Virus record (IMG/VR): IMGVR_UViG_3300008050_000039
Coordinates: 1 to 64,000 of that record
Direction: 5' to 3' (one strand)
DNA from: a virus
Length of the DNA stretch: 64,000 nt
Positions 7,403-41,517 of this stretch are shown here, one piece after another. The notes beneath the pieces are model-generated. The model was not told the DNA's origin. It worked only from the letters and a program-made list of their open reading frames with translations, and did no database searches. A program made the translations under genes and the position numbers. Every line of letters starts with the position of its first letter. Positions within the stretch are counted from its first letter, which is position 1.

Positions 7403-8656
7403 CTAAATCCAATCGCGCTCATCATCCACTCGTTGTCCTAATTCAGCAAGTGTTTTCCCAATTCGTTCTTCGGCCAACACCACATAATCTGGGTTCAGTT
7501 CAATACCAACCGCTTTGCGACCGTTGGCAAGAGCGACCGCTATGGTTGTGCCGCTACCTAAGAACGGGTCTAAGACCACGCAGGGGACAGGGGTCGGATA
7601 AGAACAATCACAGGTTGGCCCCCATCGGTGCAAAGCAGTAATGTTTTCAATTTTGTTTTTCCGCGGCACGCGGTTTCCGCTACCGGCGAAATCATCTGAA
7701 CGGTGGGCTTCTGAAATCTCCCTCTCCTTTTTCCATTCGGTGTTTTGGTAGTCACAATCGGGGCATCTATTATGTTGTGTGGGGATAAAACCGTTGCATT
7801 CGGAACAGGCTTTACCTACGGTTCGCTTGTAAGGGGCGTTACAGTCACCACAACAGCCCTGTTCGCTCGTTCCGGCTCGTATGCAGGGTTCAATCAATTC
7901 GGGTGGATATACGGCGAAGTGTGCGCCTTTGTATGGTTTGGGCGATACCCACCATACCGAGCGTTTATTTCGTTTTGTGGTATTAGTAGCATCGGGTATT
8001 TTAATTGCATCCGAATCAAAATAGTAATGTTTGCTCTTAGTTAGAAGGAATATGTATTCGTGATTCTTCGTGCATCGGTCACGCACCGATTCGGGCATAC
8101 AGTTTGGTTTGGCCCATATAATATCCTGTCGCAACCACCAACCATCCTGTTGTAGTGCGAACGCGACTCGCCACGGAATACCCACAAGGTCTTTTGGTTT
8201 GAGGTCGCCACCACTTGCGGCATACGAATCACCAAGATTCAGCCATAATGTGCCTTCGGGTTTCAAGACCCTGCGAACCTCTCGGAATATCTCGGTGATG
8301 TTGGCCGTATATTGTTCCGGTGTAGGTTCAAGTCCTAACTGTCCGAACCACGCCTTACAATGCCCGCAATACGCCTGTTCTTGGGGTTCCCAATAGGCCG
8401 ACTTCAATTGAAGGCTGTTGTCGTTGTTGCGGGTGTTTTCGCTTGGGCGTGTGTAACCTTCCCAATCGTGGTCGCAATCGGGATTACCGCCCCATACGAT
8501 ACCATCTCCGCCGTAATCACGCAACCCCCAATAAGGAGGGGAGGTTATACAAGTATGCACCGATTCATCGGGCATGGTTCTCAATACCGTTAGACTATCG
8601 CCTGTTAGTATTTTGAACGGTTCATCATTGTTTAGAACCGACACAATCTCACCCAA
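7403..8656 (-). CDS. DNA N4-cytosine/N6-adenine methyltransferase
   Basis: 417 residues. TSPPYWGLRDYG is the catalytic (S/D)PPY motif IV and DPFLGSGTTIAVAL is the AdoMet-binding FxGxG motif; their order (catalytic first) fits the beta group. Cysteine pairs in the middle (YCGHCKAW, CCGDC, CSEC, CPDC) suggest inserted zinc ribbons. Probably modifies viral DNA for protection or regulation; no cognate restriction gene is visible. The start appears to be TTG at 8656, overlapping the upstream small membrane protein gene; no upstream ATG is in frame. Confidence 0.9.
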   Translation of the reverse strand: MGEIVSVLNNDEPFKILTGDSLTVLRTMPDESVHTCITSPPYWGLRDYGGDGIVWGGNPDCDHDWEGYTRPSENTRNNDNSLQLKSAYWEPQEQAYCGHCKAWFGQLGLEPTPEQYTANITEIFREVRRVLKPEGTLWLNLGDSYAASGGDLKPKDLVGIPWRVAFALQQDGWWLRQDIIWAKPNCMPESVRDRCTKNHEYIFLLTKSKHYYFDSDAIKIPDATNTTKRNKRSVWWVSPKPYKGAHFAVYPPELIEPCIRAGTSEQGCCGDCNAPYKRTVGKACSECNGFIPTQHNRCPDCDYQNTEWKKEREISEAHRSDDFAGSGNRVPRKNKIENITALHRWGPTCDCSYPTPVPCVVLDPFLGSGTTIAVALANGRKAVGIELNPDYVVLAEERIGKTLAELGQRVDDERDWI

Positions 8657-26411: not shown

Positions 26412-26584
26412 TCCTTCACCTCCAATACTATACCGTATTCCTGTTCTAAACAATCCAAACAAATTACCTCATCTTTTTCGTTTTCTCTTATACTTTTAGT
26501 GGGAGAATTAACGACTTTGAATATACCAAACTTATAATCACAAGCATTGCCGCATTCACAACGAGGCGTCCCTGTTTCAGTCAT
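26408..26584 (-). CDS. 58-residue zinc-ribbon protein
   Basis: MTETGTPRCECGNACDYKF...VICLDCLEQEYG: CxCxxxC and CxxC groups. The start overlaps the ArdC-like stop (TAATG) and the stop overlaps the next ATG (ATGA). Confidence 0.65.
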   Translation of the reverse strand: MTETGTPRCECGNACDYKFGIFKVVNSPTKSIRENEKDEVICLDCLEQEYGIVLEVKE

Positions 26585-27678
26585 TATTCATCACCCTCCT
26601 TTTTGTCCTCAACGCCGAAGAAATCCGGCATAAGTAATTCCGCCGCCTTCTGTGATTTGGCCGCCGCTTTGAATATGAAATCAACCCCACCATCCTTCGC
26701 ATCACGAATCTTTTTCATCCATGATTGGAGGTATGCCGCATGATTTTCCAAGCCCTCTTCTGCCATTTTATTTGGTATGGATATGGCCGCACAAAGCAAT
26801 GCCGCACCCATCTCCGCCACTAATTCTTCGTGAGCATAATTTTCACTACCGAACATACCGGACATATCGCGATTGAGTCGGCCTGGATTTCCTGTCCAAT
26901 GAGTCAATTCGTGAAGAATGGTTGAGAGTCGTCCCTCAATCGTCTTGAAATCATCACGCTTCGGCACTTGAACGAAGTCGCCACTAACCCTGTAAAAAGC
27001 CTTGCCGCCTTTCTCTCGGAAATCAACACCATTCATTTTGATAATCTCATCCACTTCGTTTTCAGCCTTGATTCTTCGCTTACCCTTGAGAGTCTTTGTC
27101 GCCTTTGGTTTTGGCAACGGTGGCAACCCTGTTTGGTCGCGATTGAATACATTGAACCAATCCATCATAGGTATTTTCTTGAAAGAATCGGGGTCGTCTT
27201 TGTCGGGGAATACAAGCATATTCCAATAGATAACTACCGTTGATTGTTGAGCCTTTTTGATACCATACCACTTGGTCGGTTTTTTCCAACGCTTACCGTC
27301 TTTGGTTTCAGCCCATTCCCATTCACCGTTCTTAATCGCGTGTGAAGTAGCAATCTTTTTCCATTGATTGAAGGTTCCCCATTCATTTGATTTGAAACCT
27401 TTGTCCATTGCTTCGCTTATTAACCACCAAACATTGATGCCGCGATATGGCTTTTTAGCGGCTACACGCATAGGCAGACCACCAACGCCGCCTTCCCACG
27501 GCTTTTCCCACGGCCTAACGCCCTTTTTCATTTGCTTGATTATAGAGTTAGCAACCTGTTCTTTGATTTGCGCTCGTCGCTCTCGCTTGCTGTATTTCGC
27601 CTTTCCTTTACTCTTTGTCTTTGTGCCGGCCTTTGCCGCGCCCTGTCGGGTCTTTGTCTGTGTTTTATTCTTTGTCAT
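26584..27678 (-). CDS. ArdC-like antirestriction protein (ssDNA-binding N-terminus plus zincin)
   Basis: 364 residues. A basic N-terminal leader, then the ArdC-type ssDNA-binding region (VANSIIKQMKKGVRPWEKPW, KPYRGINVWWL) and a metallopeptidase domain with STILHELTHWTG (HExxH). ArdC proteins of plasmids and phages protect incoming DNA from restriction; the protease part is conserved but its target is unclear. First gene under promoter copy 4; its N-terminus (MTKNKTQTKTRQGAA) resembles the leaders of other first genes. Start after AGGAAGTGATAAA. Confidence 0.85.
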   Translation of the reverse strand: MTKNKTQTKTRQGAAKAGTKTKSKGKAKYSKRERRAQIKEQVANSIIKQMKKGVRPWEKPWEGGVGGLPMRVAAKKPYRGINVWWLISEAMDKGFKSNEWGTFNQWKKIATSHAIKNGEWEWAETKDGKRWKKPTKWYGIKKAQQSTVVIYWNMLVFPDKDDPDSFKKIPMMDWFNVFNRDQTGLPPLPKPKATKTLKGKRRIKAENEVDEIIKMNGVDFREKGGKAFYRVSGDFVQVPKRDDFKTIEGRLSTILHELTHWTGNPGRLNRDMSGMFGSENYAHEELVAEMGAALLCAAISIPNKMAEEGLENHAAYLQSWMKKIRDAKDGGVDFIFKAAAKSQKAAELLMPDFFGVEDKKEGDE

Positions 27679-36294: not shown

Positions 36295-36335
36295 GCGGCC
36301 AAAATTAATGGCTTGCAGTCCAACCTTTCGGCCGT
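36295..36335. repeat. 41-bp dyad ACGGCC-N29-GGCCGT, copy a
   Basis: Left arm GCGGCC, right arm GGCCGT, 41 bp outer edge to outer edge. CAGTC (the complement of GACTG) begins one base right of the centre. Confidence 0.7.
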
Positions 36336-36387
36336 AATTTTCATTTGGTTTCATTTACTCATATCATGAGAGGTATAGTGTGTTAAA

Positions 36388-36428
36388 ACGGCCAAAACGA
36401 TGGACTGCGTTTGATATTTTTTGGCCGT
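36388..36428. repeat. 41-bp dyad ACGGCC-N29-GGCCGT, copy b
   Basis: Arms ACGGCCAAAA and TTTTTTGGCCGT; GACTG ends one base left of the centre, followed by CG as in the promoter boxes. Confidence 0.75.
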
Positions 36429-36435
36429 TATGTAT

Positions 36436-36463
36436 TGTTATTTTTTCCCTGGTTTTTCTAACA
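36436..36463. repeat. 28-bp dyad TGTTA-N18-TAACA, copy i
   Basis: TGTTATTTTTT on the left and TTTTTCTAACA on the right; exactly 28 bp. The other copies of this family have the same arm spacing. Confidence 0.7.
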
Positions 36464-36481
36464 ATTGCTGTATCCAGCGTA

Positions 36482-36509
36482 TGTTATTTTTTTGATTATT
36501 ATTCTAACA
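36482..36509. repeat. 28-bp dyad TGTTA-N18-TAACA, copy ii
   Basis: TGTTATTTTTTT to TTCTAACA, 28 bp, 18 bp after copy i. Confidence 0.7.
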
Positions 36510-36535
36510 GTTATTTTTTAATCGGATTTTGTAAC

Positions 36536-36563
36536 TGTTATTTTTTCGTGGATTTTCCTAACA
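36536..36563. repeat. 28-bp dyad TGTTA-N18-TAACA, copy iii
   Basis: TGTTATTTTTTCG to TTTTCCTAACA, 28 bp, directly before a GGCCGT half-site at 36571. Confidence 0.7.
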
Positions 36564-36628
36564 TTGTTTTGGCCGTTATGTAGTCTTGGTATCAATTCGC
36601 CTATGGTTGTTGTGGTGGTGTTTTGAAA

Positions 36629-36669
36629 GCGGCCAAAAGAGGCAACGGGTTTTCATTTTTTTTGGCCGT
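36629..36669. repeat. 41-bp dyad ACGGCC-N29-GGCCGT, copy c
   Basis: Arms GCGGCCAAAA and TTTTGGCCGT with exactly 41 bp span; the only copy without the central GACTG. Confidence 0.65.
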
Positions 36670-36703
36670 TTCTCTATGGGCCAATCCCCAAGCCCAAAAT
36701 CCC

Positions 36704-36731
36704 TGTTATTTTTTTTCTCTTTTTTCTAACA
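36704..36731. repeat. 28-bp dyad TGTTA-N18-TAACA, copy iv
   Basis: TGTTATTTTTTTTC to TTTTTCTAACA, 28 bp, flanked by CCC and GGG that extend the symmetry. Confidence 0.7.
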
Positions 36732-36755
36732 GGGCCAAACCCCAAGCCCCACGAA

Positions 36756-36956
36756 AATTAATTCTTTTTATTGTTTTCGCGATTCACAGAAAGAATTAAT
36801 CGTATTCAGTCAAGCGGTTTTTTTTATTCTTTTATTGTTTCAATAGTATGTAGGTTAGTAACCTATTAACTAAACCATTAATGAAAGAATAAAAGAATAA
36901 ACCTAATCGTTGTGCTGGTCTGGATTTATTCTTTCTGAATTAATTTTGTTGACAAA
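36756..36956. repeat. ~200-bp symmetric element B
   Basis: Shares order and content with element A: CAGAAAGAATTAATCG, CAGTCAAGCG, TATTCTTTTATTG, GTTAGTAACCTATTAACTAA, ATGAAAGAATAAAAGAATAA and TTATTCTTTCTGAATTAATT. A 43-bp dyad AAAGAATAA/TTATTCTTT lies at 36892-36934. Confidence 0.7.
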
Positions 36957-37059
36957 AAGAATAAACAAAACCAGGAAAATCTCCGCGTGAAAATCTTTTT
37001 GTGGTGGTTTTTTTGTTTTTTTCTGTGCGGTTTTTTGGGGGGTTTTACCCAAATAAAAA

Positions 37060-37100
37060 AGGGCCAAAAAAACAGGGGCGCAGTCATGCCTTTTGGCCGT
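37060..37100. repeat. 41-bp dyad, copy d
   Basis: Arms AGGGCCAAAA and TTTTGGCCGT, 41 bp, with GCGCAGTC at the centre in reverse orientation; its complement GACTGCGCCCCTG matches the core in element A. Confidence 0.7.
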
Positions 37101-37278
37101 AATTTCAAAATGAAGGTGACGACTGAGGCCACAAACCCCCTGATGGACAAAAACGGCCAAAAGAGGTTTAGTTAATAAGTAAAATAAGCGTTAATTAATA
37201 ATTAAAACTGCATCTGGGGGCTTAATATGCAGATTTTTGGACTTTTGGGGTTTTTTTCAAAAAATGATATTTTTTGGC

Positions 37279-37306
37279 CGTTATTTTTTGGGGTCAAAAT
37301 ATAACA
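37279..37306. repeat. 28-bp dyad (CGTTA/TAACA variant), copy v
   Basis: CGTTATTTTTTGG to ATATAACA, 28 bp, with one base changed in the left arm. It shares the left GGCCGTTA with a half-site of the 41-bp family. Confidence 0.55.
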
Positions 37307-37311
37307 GAAAA

Positions 37312-37340
37312 TGTTATTATTTGGGGTCAGATTAATAACA
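37312..37340. repeat. 29-bp TGTTA/TAACA dyad, copy vi
   Basis: TGTTATTATTTGG to TTAATAACA; one base longer than the others, so possibly a degenerate copy. Confidence 0.5.
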
Positions 37341-37420
37341 ATCGCCGCGATTGGCGGCGGCCGCGCTCCTTAGTTAGCGAGTGAACCGTGGGCTTATAGT
37401 CTTTTCGTTGCCTACGCGAA

Positions 37421-37448
37421 TGTTATAAAAAACGGCCAAAAAATAACA
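37421..37448. repeat. 28-bp dyad TGTTA-N18-TAACA, copy vii
   Basis: TGTTATAAAAAACGGCC to AAAAATAACA, exactly 28 bp, with a GGCC half-site of the other family in its centre. Confidence 0.65.
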
Positions 37449-37491
37449 AAAAAACTCACGACTGGCCAGTAAATAGGATTGACAGACAAAA

Positions 37492-37532
37492 ACGGCCAAA
37501 ACGCTTGACTGGATTCCATAATTTCGGGCCGT
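37492..37532. repeat. 41-bp dyad, copy f
   Basis: Arms ACGGCCAAAACG and CGGGCCGT; GACTG at 37507-37511 ends one base left of the centre, preceded by CGCTT as in elements A-C. Sequence after the right arm (TTTCTAAA) is shared with the copy at 39160. Confidence 0.75.
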
Positions 37533-37707
37533 TTCTAAAGGGGCCAAACCCCCAAGCCCTAAACCCCCCAAAAAAAGAGGCGGCGGCCATGACAAAAAGG
37601 GGCAAAAATCGCCAAAATCCGCACAACGACACGATGGGTTCATATCCGATGGCCCCACTTGCTGAAGCAATCATGTAAGCGAAAGCATGAGGGGAGTCAA
37701 ACGAATA

Positions 37708-37779
37708 GCGAAAAATATGAAAAATATGAATGAAATAAATGGAGCGAAAAATATGAAAAATATGAATGAAATAAATGGA
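37708..37779 (+). repeat. 36-bp tandem duplication at a gene leader
   Basis: Two identical 36-bp units (37708-37743 and 37744-37779), each coding for AKNMKNMNEING if translated. A third copy of most of the unit starts the gene at 38210. Confidence 0.85.
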
Positions 37780-37818
37780 AACATGACAACGAATGACGGC
37801 ATAAAGGGAGGTGAAAAA

Positions 37819-38073
37819 ATGGATGATGAATGGATGATGAAACACGAATACAAGCACATAAGCCTTGAAGGGTTGATTATTGGTAGCATACGACAAGGGG
37901 GCTTAGAAGCGGCCTTAGAAGTGATGAATAGCCCTAACTATTGGTTAGGTTGCGAACGCGAAATGTGGGCATTGAATATGGGTTCAATATACGATGATGC
38001 GCGCGGCGGTTCAATCAATGAAAAGGTTGGCTTGATGCTACAAACACGACAAACACCACACAATACATGGTGA
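37819..38073 (+). CDS. Small hypothetical protein of the rightward cluster
   Basis: 84 residues from the ATG at 37819 (MDDEWMMKHEYKHIS), chosen because AAAGGGAGGTGAAAAA precedes it. The open frame extends upstream through the duplicated 36-bp leader to 37687, so a longer protein with a repeat N-terminus is possible. No family recognised. Confidence 0.65.
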   Translation: MDDEWMMKHEYKHISLEGLIIGSIRQGGLEAALEVMNSPNYWLGCEREMWALNMGSIYDDARGGSINEKVGLMLQTRQTPHNTW

Positions 38074-38080
38074 AGTGATA

Positions 38081-38203
38081 ATGGCGGGGGTGTCAAAACC
38101 CCTGCCTAAATCCCTTAAATGGGCATTGCGTAACGATGCGTTGATATACTCAACCACCCTCACAGGGTTCAGACCGCAACGAATGGCGGCAAAAAGGAGT
38201 TAG
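38081..38203 (+). CDS. 40-residue basic ORF
   Basis: MAGVSKPLPKSLKWALRND...; starts 7 bp after the previous stop with a GAAGTGATA site, ends just before the next leader. Basic (net Lys/Arg). No family recognised. Confidence 0.5.
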   Translation: MAGVSKPLPKSLKWALRNDALIYSTTLTGFRPQRMAAKRS

Positions 38204-38209
38204 AAAAAT

Positions 38210-38488
38210 ATGAAAAATATGAATGAAATAAATGGAAACATGAACGGAGAGGTTGAGGGAGGCAACGCGATTGAAGCATACCGACGCAAACATAGAATTG
38301 GTAATAACTTGAATAATGTTATCAGCGTATTGATTGACTTCCATAGTGAATTAGTGGAACAATCATACTTAGGGTATGAAGTGCTTGAGGAAGTAGTTGA
38401 TGATTTGAAGCGCATCAACCAAGAGCAAAAAGCATTGAGAGAACAAATCGCGGCGTTACTTCTAAGGCCGCTTGAAACAAGAGGCTGA
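38210..38488 (+). CDS. Helical protein starting with the duplicated leader
   Basis: 92 residues: MKNMNEINGNMNGEVEGGN then a long amphipathic helix (LEEVVDDLKRINQEQKALRE). AAAAGGAGTT lies 8 bp before the ATG, so the repeated leader is translated here. Likely forms coiled-coil dimers. Confidence 0.7.
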   Translation: MKNMNEINGNMNGEVEGGNAIEAYRRKHRIGNNLNNVISVLIDFHSELVEQSYLGYEVLEEVVDDLKRINQEQKALREQIAALLLRPLETRG

Positions 38489-38493
38489 ATAGA

Positions 38494-38796
38494 ATGCCAC
38501 GACACGATAATTACAACGGTCGCTTCATCATTCAAGACACCGAAGGGGCGACCTTCAAGTGGTCTTGCAGGGGTTGCGACCGATACAGCGAGCAATTAGG
38601 TTACAGCGATAAGCGCAACGGCCCTATACAGGCATTCAATGACGCGCATGAACACGCAACAAAGTGCTTGAACCGACTTCGTATTGAACAGGGAACGAAT
38701 GAATGGCCTACTCATTATTTGGTTAGGGATTTCATTTCAGACTACATAGACGCAACAGCCCAAACCGTTTGGGTTGATGTTAAACTTTCAAACTGA
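38494..38796 (+). CDS. Small zinc-finger-like protein
   Basis: 100 residues. SCRGCDRYSEQ followed by AFNDAHEHATKC suggests a CxxC...HxH/C zinc site. Follows the previous stop by 5 bp. No family recognised. Confidence 0.65.
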   Translation: MPRHDNYNGRFIIQDTEGATFKWSCRGCDRYSEQLGYSDKRNGPIQAFNDAHEHATKCLNRLRIEQGTNEWPTHYLVRDFISDYIDATAQTVWVDVKLSN

Positions 38797-38810
38797 ATGA
38801 GGTTGTCAAT

Positions 38811-39077
38811 ATGTCAAAGAGCATCACAGGGCGTCACCCCGCTAAAGGTGGCAAAGGGGTTAGTCCAAGTGGCAACCCCGCCCCCTTCGGGGGGCATCCT
38901 TCTAAGGGTGCGTTGCGGCCCCTCTATGGTCGCTTCGCGTCCTCACCCTGCCCTACCTACCGCCGGCATTTTTTCGGGCGTCTTGGGGGCTTTTTTCGTC
39001 CGGTTTTTTCGTCCGGTTTTTTCTCTTTTTTCTTCTTTTTTCTTTGGGCCGTTTTTGGGGGTTGGTTTTGTTTTTGA
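38811..39077 (+). CDS. Doubtful ORF through hairpin and T-rich DNA
   Basis: 88 residues if real (MSKSITGRHPAKGGKGV...); the ATG has a GAGGTTGTCA site. The second half is a Phe run read from T-rich repeats, so at most the N-terminal part is a protein. The region more likely carries RNA structure. Confidence 0.25.
   Translation: MSKSITGRHPAKGGKGVSPSGNPAPFGGHPSKGALRPLYGRFASSPCPTYRRHFFGRLGGFFRPVFSSGFFSFFFFFLWAVFGGWFCF
38880..38895 (+). other. GC hairpin with TTCG loop
   Basis: GCCCCC-TTCG-GGGGGC: a perfect 6-bp stem with a UUCG tetraloop in RNA, in a GC-rich 150-bp patch inside an AT-rich genome. The preceding ACCCCGC...AAGGGGT (about 38837-38860) can form another stem. Possible structured RNA or terminator. 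Confidence 0.55.
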
Positions 39078-39085
39078 AATCTTTT

Positions 39086-39120
39086 GGCCGTTTTTTCTTT
39101 TGGCCGTTTTCTTTTGGCCG
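39086..39120. repeat. Three GGCCG half-sites in T-rich DNA
   Basis: TTTTGGCCGTTTT occurs three times at 14-16 bp spacing, just before 41-bp dyad copy g. The tract TTTTTTCTTTT between them is also an archaeal-type T-tract that could end upstream transcripts. Confidence 0.55.
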
Positions 39121-39159
39121 TTGCCGGCATGAACCCATTGAAGCGAGCATATCACGAAA

Positions 39160-39200
39160 ACGGCCAAAACGCACGACTGAAAGGCTGATTTTCGGGCCGT
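39160..39200. repeat. 41-bp dyad, copy g
   Basis: ACGGCCAAAACG to CGGGCCGT, 41 bp; GACTG at 39175-39179 ends one base left of the centre. Close sequence match to the copy at 37492. It lies about 310 bp upstream of the gene at 39512; nothing else recognisable fills 39201-39511. Confidence 0.75.
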
Positions 39201-39511
39201 TTCTAAAACCTGCTAATTTGGCGAAAATTGGCACATTTGAAAAGTTGAAAATTAAGGCGAAAACGCACAAAGTCGCGGTCGCGATGTCACGCGAAAACGA
39301 AAATAAGCGCGTCAAACGCGACCGATTTAATAAAAATCCCACCCCGAATAATAATCAAAAAAAGACCCAAAAAAGCGAAACGGAATCGGTCAAATACCTC
39401 ACAAAAATCGTCAAAATCGCACATCCCTCGCGTAGGGGTTGATATACGACCACACAATCGGACAACTACGGAACGAAACACCGACAACCCAAAAATGAGA
39501 GGCGAAAAAAA

Positions 39512-40576
39512 ATGAGAGAACATGAAAACAGAAGAAAAAGAACGGCCGCCGGTATGGTGGCAAGCATTGTCTTGACAATGTTTGAATTAATCAAGTGTGT
39601 CAACTTCGGAAACACCAACCGAAGTTATGAGGCATTAGAGGCACGCTTGAATGGGTGCAAAGTCAAAGAAGTGCGAAAAGTTGCAAAGTCCTTGCAAGTA
39701 TCAACAAAAGGCATACGGTCATTGACTAAGGCCCAACTAATTGAACGCATCATGAAAGAAAAATACGGATATGACGCAAAGGCTCCCTACTTTCAGACCG
39801 GCGACGAGTTGAAAGTTGACTTTCAAAAATTAGACCCTTCGCTACAACTTGACAACGAGGGGCAATTCATCAAAGCAGACGGAATACTCAACCCGCATGA
39901 GCCGACAAATAAAATCAAGTCGCCATATCAGCGCGCACCTTCGTATGATTACATGGATGCAAAAACCAAAGCGAAGCACCGAGTAGCGACAAACGAAGCA
40001 GGTCAAGCAGTTAGTCGCCGTTATTCGGCCTCAATCAAAGTCCCACTATTGAACCCTTCAAATGGCACTTTCAAGACATACGCCGACGGCCGAATTAAGT
40101 TAGTGCGTCATGAAATGCGCGTGGGCTACCTTGACACAAACGACGAAGAGCGATATAGTGGTCGTGTCAAAACCGGCACAAGCAACCGCCGCACCGCTAC
40201 AATCCTAAGACAGGTTATGATTGAAAATAACGAGGGCGCTTATTTGGTGTGGGTTGCAATACTCAAGACCTCAAGTCACTTGATTGATTCAATCACCCTA
40301 CCAAACTTCGCAAGCGATGAAGAAGTGACTCAAGCACTTGATTCAATCAACAAGGCGTGGCAATTCGCCGCACAGGTTGAAGAGGCGTCACGGTATGGCC
40401 GATGTGGTGATGAATTAGTATCGTGCGACCTTGACCCAACAAAGGCACACAACTGCTTAACTCAAGCCTACGCTAAGCAATCAAACAAGGACTACATCAA
40501 GAGTGTTAGGGGCCGTCATTCAATGCTACCATACGACCACGCCGTTATGATGCTATATGAGGGGGTGAGTGAATGA
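39512..40576 (+). CDS. SAP-domain-like DNA-binding protein
   Basis: 354 residues. CKVKEVRKVAKSLQVSTKGI...LTKAQLIERI near residues 48-80 fits a SAP motif (helix-loop-helix DNA binding). The rest is mixed alpha/beta with basic patches (NEAGQAVSRRYSASIKVP, RHEMRVGYL). GAGAGGCGAAAAAA precedes the ATG. Possibly an origin- or dyad-binding protein, given its position beside the repeats; not proven. Overlaps the next gene by 4 bp. Confidence 0.65.
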   Translation: MREHENRRKRTAAGMVASIVLTMFELIKCVNFGNTNRSYEALEARLNGCKVKEVRKVAKSLQVSTKGIRSLTKAQLIERIMKEKYGYDAKAPYFQTGDELKVDFQKLDPSLQLDNEGQFIKADGILNPHEPTNKIKSPYQRAPSYDYMDAKTKAKHRVATNEAGQAVSRRYSASIKVPLLNPSNGTFKTYADGRIKLVRHEMRVGYLDTNDEERYSGRVKTGTSNRRTATILRQVMIENNEGAYLVWVAILKTSSHLIDSITLPNFASDEEVTQALDSINKAWQFAAQVEEASRYGRCGDELVSCDLDPTKAHNCLTQAYAKQSNKDYIKSVRGRHSMLPYDHAVMMLYEGVSE

Positions 40577-41166
40577 AGAAGCCATGCCGCTTCAAGAAGT
40601 GCAAGGGAGTTATTCACCGCGGCTCATGCCCCGTTAGGGTGGCATTGGGTCGCAAGGGTGGCAATGTGAAAACCGCCACTCTATCACCGGCCCAACTCAA
40701 GCAACGCAAGCAAGCAAGCAAGCAAGCACGCACACCATCAGCAAGCCGAAATAAACTCAACAGCGAGCGCATGAAAGCAAAGCAGGCAGCAAGCAAGAAG
40801 GCCGGCCTTTGTCTATACTGTCACACAGCCCATGAAGGAATATGCCCCCTTGCATCAAGGGGCGGTCATAATTCAATCACCGTCCGCACTATCAAAGAAG
40901 CGCGAAAAACAATCAAGCGCCGGACTGCTCTCAAGAATCGCAAAGAAATGGAGCGCCGCGCCGCGATTCAATTTAGGCCACTTCTAACACTTGACGCAAT
41001 TCCATCAAGTTGGGTGTTTGTTTGCATCCGTTGCAACGCATCACAGAAAACCGGCACTATGTCGGTTGCATTTGCTGATGATGTGGGATTCGGACTTTGC
41101 AAGACTTGCGATAATCAAATCGTTGAGAATATCTCGTTTGGCATTGACTCCAGGATTGACGGCTAA
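40573..41166 (+). CDS. Basic multi-zinc-knuckle protein
   Basis: 197 residues with three Cys groups: PCRFKKCKGVIHRGSC, LCLYCHTAHEGIC and VCIRCN...LCKTCD. Between the first two is a Lys/Gln/Ala-rich run from an (AAGC)n repeat at 40698-40728. Strongly basic; probably nucleic-acid-binding. Ends just before the hairpin at 41175. Confidence 0.7.
   Translation: MKKPCRFKKCKGVIHRGSCPVRVALGRKGGNVKTATLSPAQLKQRKQASKQARTPSASRNKLNSERMKAKQAASKKAGLCLYCHTAHEGICPLASRGGHNSITVRTIKEARKTIKRRTALKNRKEMERRAAIQFRPLLTLDAIPSSWVFVCIRCNASQKTGTMSVAFADDVGFGLCKTCDNQIVENISFGIDSRIDG
40698..40728 (+). repeat. (AAGC)n microsatellite within a gene
   Basis: About six imperfect AAGC units coding KQASKQAR-type residues; a possible site of slippage, since the unit is 4 bp. 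Confidence 0.65.
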
Positions 41167-41174
41167 AATTGCCC

Positions 41175-41201
41175 CCTATGGCCCCGTAAAGGGGCCATAG
41201 G
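41175..41201 (+). terminator. Strong hairpin terminator after the rightward cluster
   Basis: CCTATGGCCCC-GTAAA-GGGGCCATAGG: an 11-bp perfect stem with 5-nt loop, 9 bp after the stop at 41166. The following 41202-41390 has only a short tandem (GGCTTAGAAT twice) and no gene. Confidence 0.75.
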
Positions 41202-41391
41202 TGGCTCTTAATCTGAATTAGGTTCATACCTACTACTACGGGGGTGAAATGGCTTAGAATGGCTTAGAATGGCCTTGCGTGGTCTTTGTGGTTTTTTGGT
41301 GGTTTTTCGCGCATGGTTTGAGGTTTGACCTTGAAGGACGCCAAAACCCAAAAAAACCGAGGACTCATATAGAGCCAACCACCACGCGCAA

Positions 41392-41437
41392 TTTTTTACA
41401 ATTTTTTTTTACAATTTTTTTTTTGCGATTTTTTTAT
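41392..41437 (+). terminator. Archaeal-type T-tracts between convergent genes
   Basis: Four runs of 6-10 T separated by ACAA or GCGA, in the gap between the rightward cluster and the leftward terminase gene. Archaeal RNA polymerase stops at such T-runs on the coding strand. Confidence 0.6.
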
Positions 41438-41517
41438 AAGGGTTCATGGGTTCGGGTTAATTGGTTGCGGGGATAGTCGGTATCTTTCCCCCCTTTCGCC
41501 GGTTCCCCCGCGACCAC

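Follow-up and report, generated by a model that had tools for sequence, protein, structure and literature searches.

Six 41-bp dyads in a probably archaeal tailed virus belong to a three-site DNA module that may be read by a virus-encoded regulator

The window analyzed here, 64 kb (positions 1 to 64,000) of the 67.6-kb virus record IMGVR_UViG_3300008050_000039, carries six dyads of exactly 41 bp, each of which was found to be part of a larger module with a third half-site, at a distance of exactly 60 bp outward from the arm on the side of a GACTG element. In our reading, each dyad supplies two of the three half-sites of a composite cis-regulatory site at which a transcription regulator coded by the virus would act; we assign this reading a probability of about 0.55. 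It draws on the following observations: six modules are present where 0.01 are expected, their 60-bp spacers are near random in sequence, the same word occupies matching positions in a relative, and the word changes between relatives.

The dyads are located at 36295-36335 (dyad 1), 36388-36428 (dyad 2), 36629-36669 (dyad 3), 37060-37100 (dyad 4), 37492-37532 (dyad 5) and 39160-39200 (dyad 6). Dyads 2, 3, 5 and 6 were assigned to the + strand, and dyads 1 and 4, in which GACTG is reversed, to the - strand. The positions and the 41-bp span given in a first-pass annotation of the same DNA were confirmed for all six copies, as was its description of GACTG ending one base from the center in five of them (positions 16-20, with base 21 as the center); dyad 3 lacks this element. 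The arms, ACGGCCAAAA and TTTT(T/C)(T/G)GGCCGT, are longer than it gave, and the distance between the centers of the two GGCC cores was measured as 33 bp instead of about 35 bp. Oriented alike, five of the six dyads read ACGGCCAAAA-s-G-nnn-GACTG-N11-TTTTsGGCCGT, with a single mismatch in some arms. The shuffled-sequence check that the annotation had proposed turned out in its favor, with seven copies of GGCC-N29-GGCC in 64 kb against 0.64 expected and at least seven in none of 100 dinucleotide shuffles. Exact GGCCAAAA words occur 16 times in the window, all inside 36.3-39.2 kb and in mixed orientation relative to transcription. The half-site word of about 10 bp is also found alone, as in the unpaired TTTTGGCCGT at 37272-37281 (- strand) and in tandem TTTTGGCCGT half-sites at 39082, 39098 and 39112 (39082-39121, - strand) upstream of a SAP-domain gene.

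The complete module has the form TTTTGGCCGT-(60)-ACGGCCAAAAsGnnnGACTG-(33)-TTTTsGGCCGT. Pairwise distances among the 28 GGCC sites of the noncoding stretches peaked at 33 bp (six times), 93 bp (six times) and 60 bp (five times), the next best distance occurring three times, and six copies of GGCC-N56-GGCC-N29-GGCC were found where 0.01 would be expected. When the noncoding stretches were dinucleotide-shuffled 300 times, no more than two triples ever had a spacing in common. Six equal triples were reached once in 2000 trials when the GGCC sites were randomized uniformly by position, a control that was judged inferior to the shuffles. The outer half-site was located at 36567-36576 in module 3 (TTTTGGCCGT, - strand), 37153-37162 in module 4 (ACGGCCAAAA, + strand), 37432-37441 in module 5 (+ strand) and 39098-39107 in module 6 (- strand); its relative orientation differs only in module 5. 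Modules 1 and 2 stand head to head and share half-sites, the left arm of dyad 2 (36388-36397) serving dyad 1 and the right arm of dyad 1 (36326-36335) serving dyad 2, and the six modules therefore represent five independent 60-bp coincidences.

Comparison of the modules with each other showed that the 60-bp spacers are near random (mean identity 0.296 versus 0.256 after shuffling) and that the left flanks are not conserved, indicating that the geometry was kept where the sequence was lost. The first-pass proposal of a selected geometry at a multi-contact site fits these data well and was supported in part, with the unit redefined as a three-site module and the word as a half-site of about 10 bp. 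Equal spacing could alternatively have been inherited, if one module had been duplicated within the genome and its spacers had drifted with no selection on geometry. Some similarity left of the center in the 33-bp spacer (0.57 versus 0.27 shuffled, mainly in the GACTG stretch) would agree with such an origin, as would the absence of the geometry from the relative L008 described below. Free drift should nevertheless have introduced insertions and deletions, while all six copies keep both spacings exactly, and the near-random 60-bp spacers, the unrelated left flanks and the presence of copies in both orientations argue further against duplication, which we consider distinctly unlikely.

The complementary arms raised the question of an action as RNA, in hairpins or attenuators where half-site 2 is able to pair with half-site 1 or 3. 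Isolated 39-nt dyads 1-3 did fold better than shuffled sequences (z -2.4 to -3.1), but dyads 5 and 6 did not (z -0.3 to -0.4), their AAAA standing opposite TTCG without compensation, and the stability of the full modules was not clearly above that of shuffles (z -0.3 to -1.7). Folding beyond the arms was therefore not supported, only sub-threshold chance matches, none credible, were returned by an Rfam scan, and a role as RNA appears highly improbable. Three sites with fixed irregular offsets and defined orientation also recall multi-site transposase ends or the core-plus-arm sites of integrases, and the modules could accordingly be transposon ends or att-like arrays bound by a recombinase. 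This is very unlikely, since six ends would be present with no element between them, no integrase, transposase or resolvase was detected in Pfam scans of the open reading frames (ORFs) tested (some small ORFs were left out), and no rearrangement was seen relative to a contig of 99.8% identity.

The relatives considered were 80 TerL-related contigs of about 57-80% identity, apart from that near-identical contig, 3300025133_000415, the only other contig with which the flanking genes are shared and in which the elements are identical. In L008 (72% TerL identity), 15 copies of GGCCAAAA were counted in 6.4 kb against 0.54 expected. They form two arrays, one preceding its own SAP-domain gene and the other preceding small ORFs, which are the two equivalent intergenic positions of the window, and the block of SAP, zinc-knuckle and TerL genes adjoins the arrays in both viruses. 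Loss of the spacing in close relatives had been named in the first-pass annotation as evidence against its proposal, and this applies in part: L008, which is not a close relative, retains the word and its position but not the 41-bp spacing, and the near-identical contig is unchanged. When the whole collection was scanned for the three-site module, the 41-bp dyad, tandem words and dyads with a free gap, the matches beyond these two contigs were scattered single ones, in contigs without a word array. The module likewise had only single matches among the matches listed for bacterial and archaeal genomes, with no word array at the loci inspected. Because the strict 33/60 geometry was seen only in this virus and its near-identical contig, selection on spacing rests on the internal copies.

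Relatives with enough downstream sequence often contain one virus-specific word, over-represented up to more than 40-fold. The words (written here with a hyphen between their two parts) were GTTAC-AAAA in L020 and L032, GTTAC-AATA in L054, GTTAC-ATAA in L056 and L058, GTTAC-AATT in L027, GCTAC-AAAT in G002, CTAC-AAAT in L031 and L044, and GGGAC-AAAAA in L009. They share the general form of a variable part followed by C and then mostly an A-tract, to which CCTACG-AAG (L015, L026) is an exception. The arrays are dense and mostly intergenic (4 of the 67 words of L020 fall in ORFs, with 53% of the stretch coding), and the words are spread over several kb and many intergenic spaces. A significant orientation bias was found in L020, L026, L032, L044 and L054; the sign was opposite in L009 and no bias was present in L031, L056 and L058. 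L020, L032, L044 and L056 have a TTCATATAG-type TATA box a short way ahead of a start codon, and the last word is found 12-17 bp upstream of this box. Inward pairs of fixed span were seen in several viruses, at 18-20 bp in L020 (nine pairs), 14-16 bp in G002 (19 pairs) and 41 bp in the window (six pairs). Adding 21 bp, or two helical turns, to the 20-bp span of L020 gives the 41-bp span, which may be a coincidence. The densest such array seen was that of G002 (L109, 6106-12049), where 20 copies of TACAAATTTGTA occur, nearly all as CTACAAATTTGTAG and several about 60 bp apart.

The change of word was followed between close relatives. The DNA of L054 matches that of L056 at 91% identity up to and including the gene after TerL, beyond which homology is lost; the SAP-like proteins of the two are 30% identical over 106 amino acids, their zinc-knuckle proteins 38% identical, and the word switches from GTTACAATA in L054 to GTTACATAA in L056. 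Between L056 and L058, which are equally close in TerL, the word is unchanged and the SAP-like proteins remain 82% identical. Joint change of the word and the SAP-like gene is what would be expected of a regulator and its operators, and the specificity of the putative regulator is probably fast-evolving.

Two neighboring genes, which form an operon beside the terminase gene, are candidates for the reader of the word. The first (39512-40576, + strand) encodes a SAP/Rho_N-type DNA-binding protein whose Pfam match to Rho_N (E value 6e-4) is below the cut-off; its L008 counterpart passes the Pfam cut-off for SAP. The second (40573-41166, + strand), overlapping the SAP gene, encodes a multi-CxxC (zinc-knuckle-like) protein, for which the AlphaFold model (pLDDT 71.5, pTM 0.32) was not used. 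Of the ribbon-helix-helix (RHH), winged-helix and SAP-type proteins that the first-pass annotation had ascribed to this DNA, the SAP-type gene was recovered by domain search and the other two types were not. No relatives of the SAP gene or of the phrog_3754 gene were found beyond the contigs already in the set. A small basic protein, possibly DNA-binding, is conserved directly downstream of TerL in 33 relatives (L017, 1583-2086, and 32 other loci); the window has no such ORF at that place, where 41167-41517 is noncoding.

On the proposed regulator-site reading, the recognition unit would be the half-site of about 10 bp, ACGGCC-AAAA, and its reader a DNA-binding protein encoded by the virus, with the SAP-domain and the zinc-knuckle proteins as the likeliest candidates. 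Each virus of the family has its own word, dispersed among the intergenic spaces of the short genes that lie downstream of the terminase, and a protein bound to words that often lie just upstream of a TATA-like box could control assembly of the host transcription machinery and thereby transcription of this region by the host polymerase. In the virus of the window, the three half-sites and the central GACTG at exact 60/33-bp offsets suggest that a protein or protein pair assembles into a rigid multimer, with GACTG perhaps read by a second domain or a partner.

Several observations weigh against this proposal. TATA-like boxes were assigned in the window at 37637-37648 (GGGTTCATATCC, + strand), upstream of the ORF at 37687-38073 and resembling the TTCATATAG boxes of the relatives, and at 39439-39449 (GTTGATATACG, + strand), upstream of the SAP-domain gene. 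These putative boxes are the nearest downstream of dyads 5 and 6, at about 110 bp and about 245 bp respectively and not at 12-17 bp, and the proposal therefore has to assume either that promoters went undetected or that the modules act from afar; modules 1-4 have no evident adjoining promoter. The main weakness lies in these distances, in the absence of the 33/60 geometry from L008, the only relative besides the near-identical contig to share the word, and in the protein evidence. The reader protein is not singled out, because the exchange between L054 and L056 spans the whole accessory region. Across word groups, the SAP-like proteins show hardly any sequence relationship. The AlphaFold model of the SAP protein was unusable (mean pLDDT 33).

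The region from 36.3 to 37.5 kb, which holds modules 1-5, is the largest AT-rich noncoding stretch of the window and contains several interleaved dyad families. A second family of fixed span (class B, TGTTATTTTTT...TAACA, i.e., TGTTA-N18-TAACA, 28 bp) was found on the + strand at 36436, 36482, 36509 and 36536 (together 36436-36563), at 36704-36731, at 37279-37306, where it overlaps the unpaired half-site of the 41-bp family (class A), and at 37421-37448, with a class-A GGCC at its center and the outer half-site of module 5 inside it. GTTA-N18-TAAC occurs seven times in the window, against 1.03 expected, and every copy falls in one 1.0-kb stretch (36437-37447). Such an arrangement could mark a replication origin, in which class-A modules and class-B dyads would be initiator sites, iteron-like or similar to origin recognition boxes (ORB-like), between the leftward and rightward gene blocks. 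Transcription does diverge there and the cumulative GC skew is lowest near 34 kb; the skew, however, tracks gene strand and turns negative a second time at 42-44 kb, where the TerL genes run leftward. An origin would account neither for module 6, which lies upstream of the SAP gene at a distance of 1.7 kb, nor for the arrays dispersed in the relatives, and no Orc1/Cdc6 or viral initiator domain was recognized in domain scans. We regard an origin as unlikely.

Further repeats were also recorded. A third dyad type, ATTCTTT-N20-AAAGAAT (34 bp), occurs at 36763 and 36929, with more AAAGAAT/ATTCTTT arms between (36759-36966). GGGCCAAaCCCCAAGCCC is present three times (36679-36696, 36732-36750 and 37541-37559); the copies that come after dyads 3 and 5 start 15 bp from the GGCC of the right arm, and the remaining copy comes directly after a class-B dyad. 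Direct repeats of 41 bp (GAAAAATATGAAAAATATGAATGAAATAAATGG...) at 37710-37786 and 38203-38243 encode near-identical N-terminal repeats (MKNMNEING) in two neighboring ORFs, and the near-identical contig (L005) differs most at 38190-38264, in this direct-repeat region.

The window encodes TerL, portal and tape-measure proteins of a tailed virus, together with a family-B DNA polymerase (PolB), an RFC-like AAA ATPase and an ERCC4 nuclease. The host is most likely archaeal, because of the RFC-like AAA and ERCC4 proteins and because the best-listed matches of PolB in the phage collection are haloarchaeal viruses (about 24% identity). As no relative was found by a TerL search of genome contigs, the host remains inferred, and no DNA similarity to phage records was detected. 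A survey of magrovirus genomes (PMC10160649), consulted in a limited literature search, makes no mention of repeats, intergenic elements or promoters. An N6/N4 DNA methylase gene (7403-8656) adjoins the polymerase gene, and an ArdC-like antirestriction protein (ArdcN and MPTase-PolyVal) is encoded at 26584-27678.

Research on virus immunity has long asked how a regulator and its DNA word change in step, for the most part in temperate bacteriophages. A probably archaeal virus family with many different, easily read word arrays would make this question approachable in archaea by sequence alone, and the arrays would mark places of transcription control in these uncultured viruses, with the three-site module as a concrete DNA probe for finding its binding protein. 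More tentatively, SAP gene, zinc-knuckle gene and word arrays may constitute a swappable cassette beside the terminase in this archaeal tailed-virus family, its specificity evolving rapidly, in the manner of temperate-phage immunity regions, and here with the words forming a rigid three-contact platform around a central GACTG. We know of no description in archaeal viruses of a three-contact site with 60/33-bp architecture.

In the homologous circuits of the CI proteins of lambda and 434, operators and regulators change specificity together (summarized in PMC6550527). What is described here is that word array and accessory genes were exchanged jointly, as seen in metagenomic contigs. Viral transcription factors in archaea have been reviewed (PMC5569661). 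The sites of L020, L032, L044 and L056 resemble the operators of such factors in lying near TATA boxes of viral promoters; in the window the nearest putative boxes are about 110-245 bp away. Neither an RHH nor a winged-helix protein could be linked to the sites found here. A 41-bp dyad with a third site at 60 bp is also much longer than typical two-half-site operators.

Cluster A mycobacteriophages such as L5 and Bxb1 carry many virus-specific operator/stoperator sites, 20-30 asymmetric sites of 13-14 bp throughout the genome, which diverge with the regulator (PMC6550527, PMC9283540) and whose repressor binds single sites as a monomer without cooperativity (PMC6550527). In contrast, the 16 words of the window are regional (36.3-39.2 kb) and not genome-wide, the half-sites occur in fixed-span pairs in several viruses or in the three-site module of this virus, and the host is probably archaeal. 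No helix-turn-helix repressor with a stoperator domain was found in Pfam, PHROG and NCBIfam scans, and repression by the candidate reader would be an analogy only. With many short, asymmetric, virus-specific sites, a predominant orientation in several relatives (mixed in the window) and divergence of the motif together with a putative regulator, the arrangement appears to resemble the cluster A operator/stoperator system without being a member of it.

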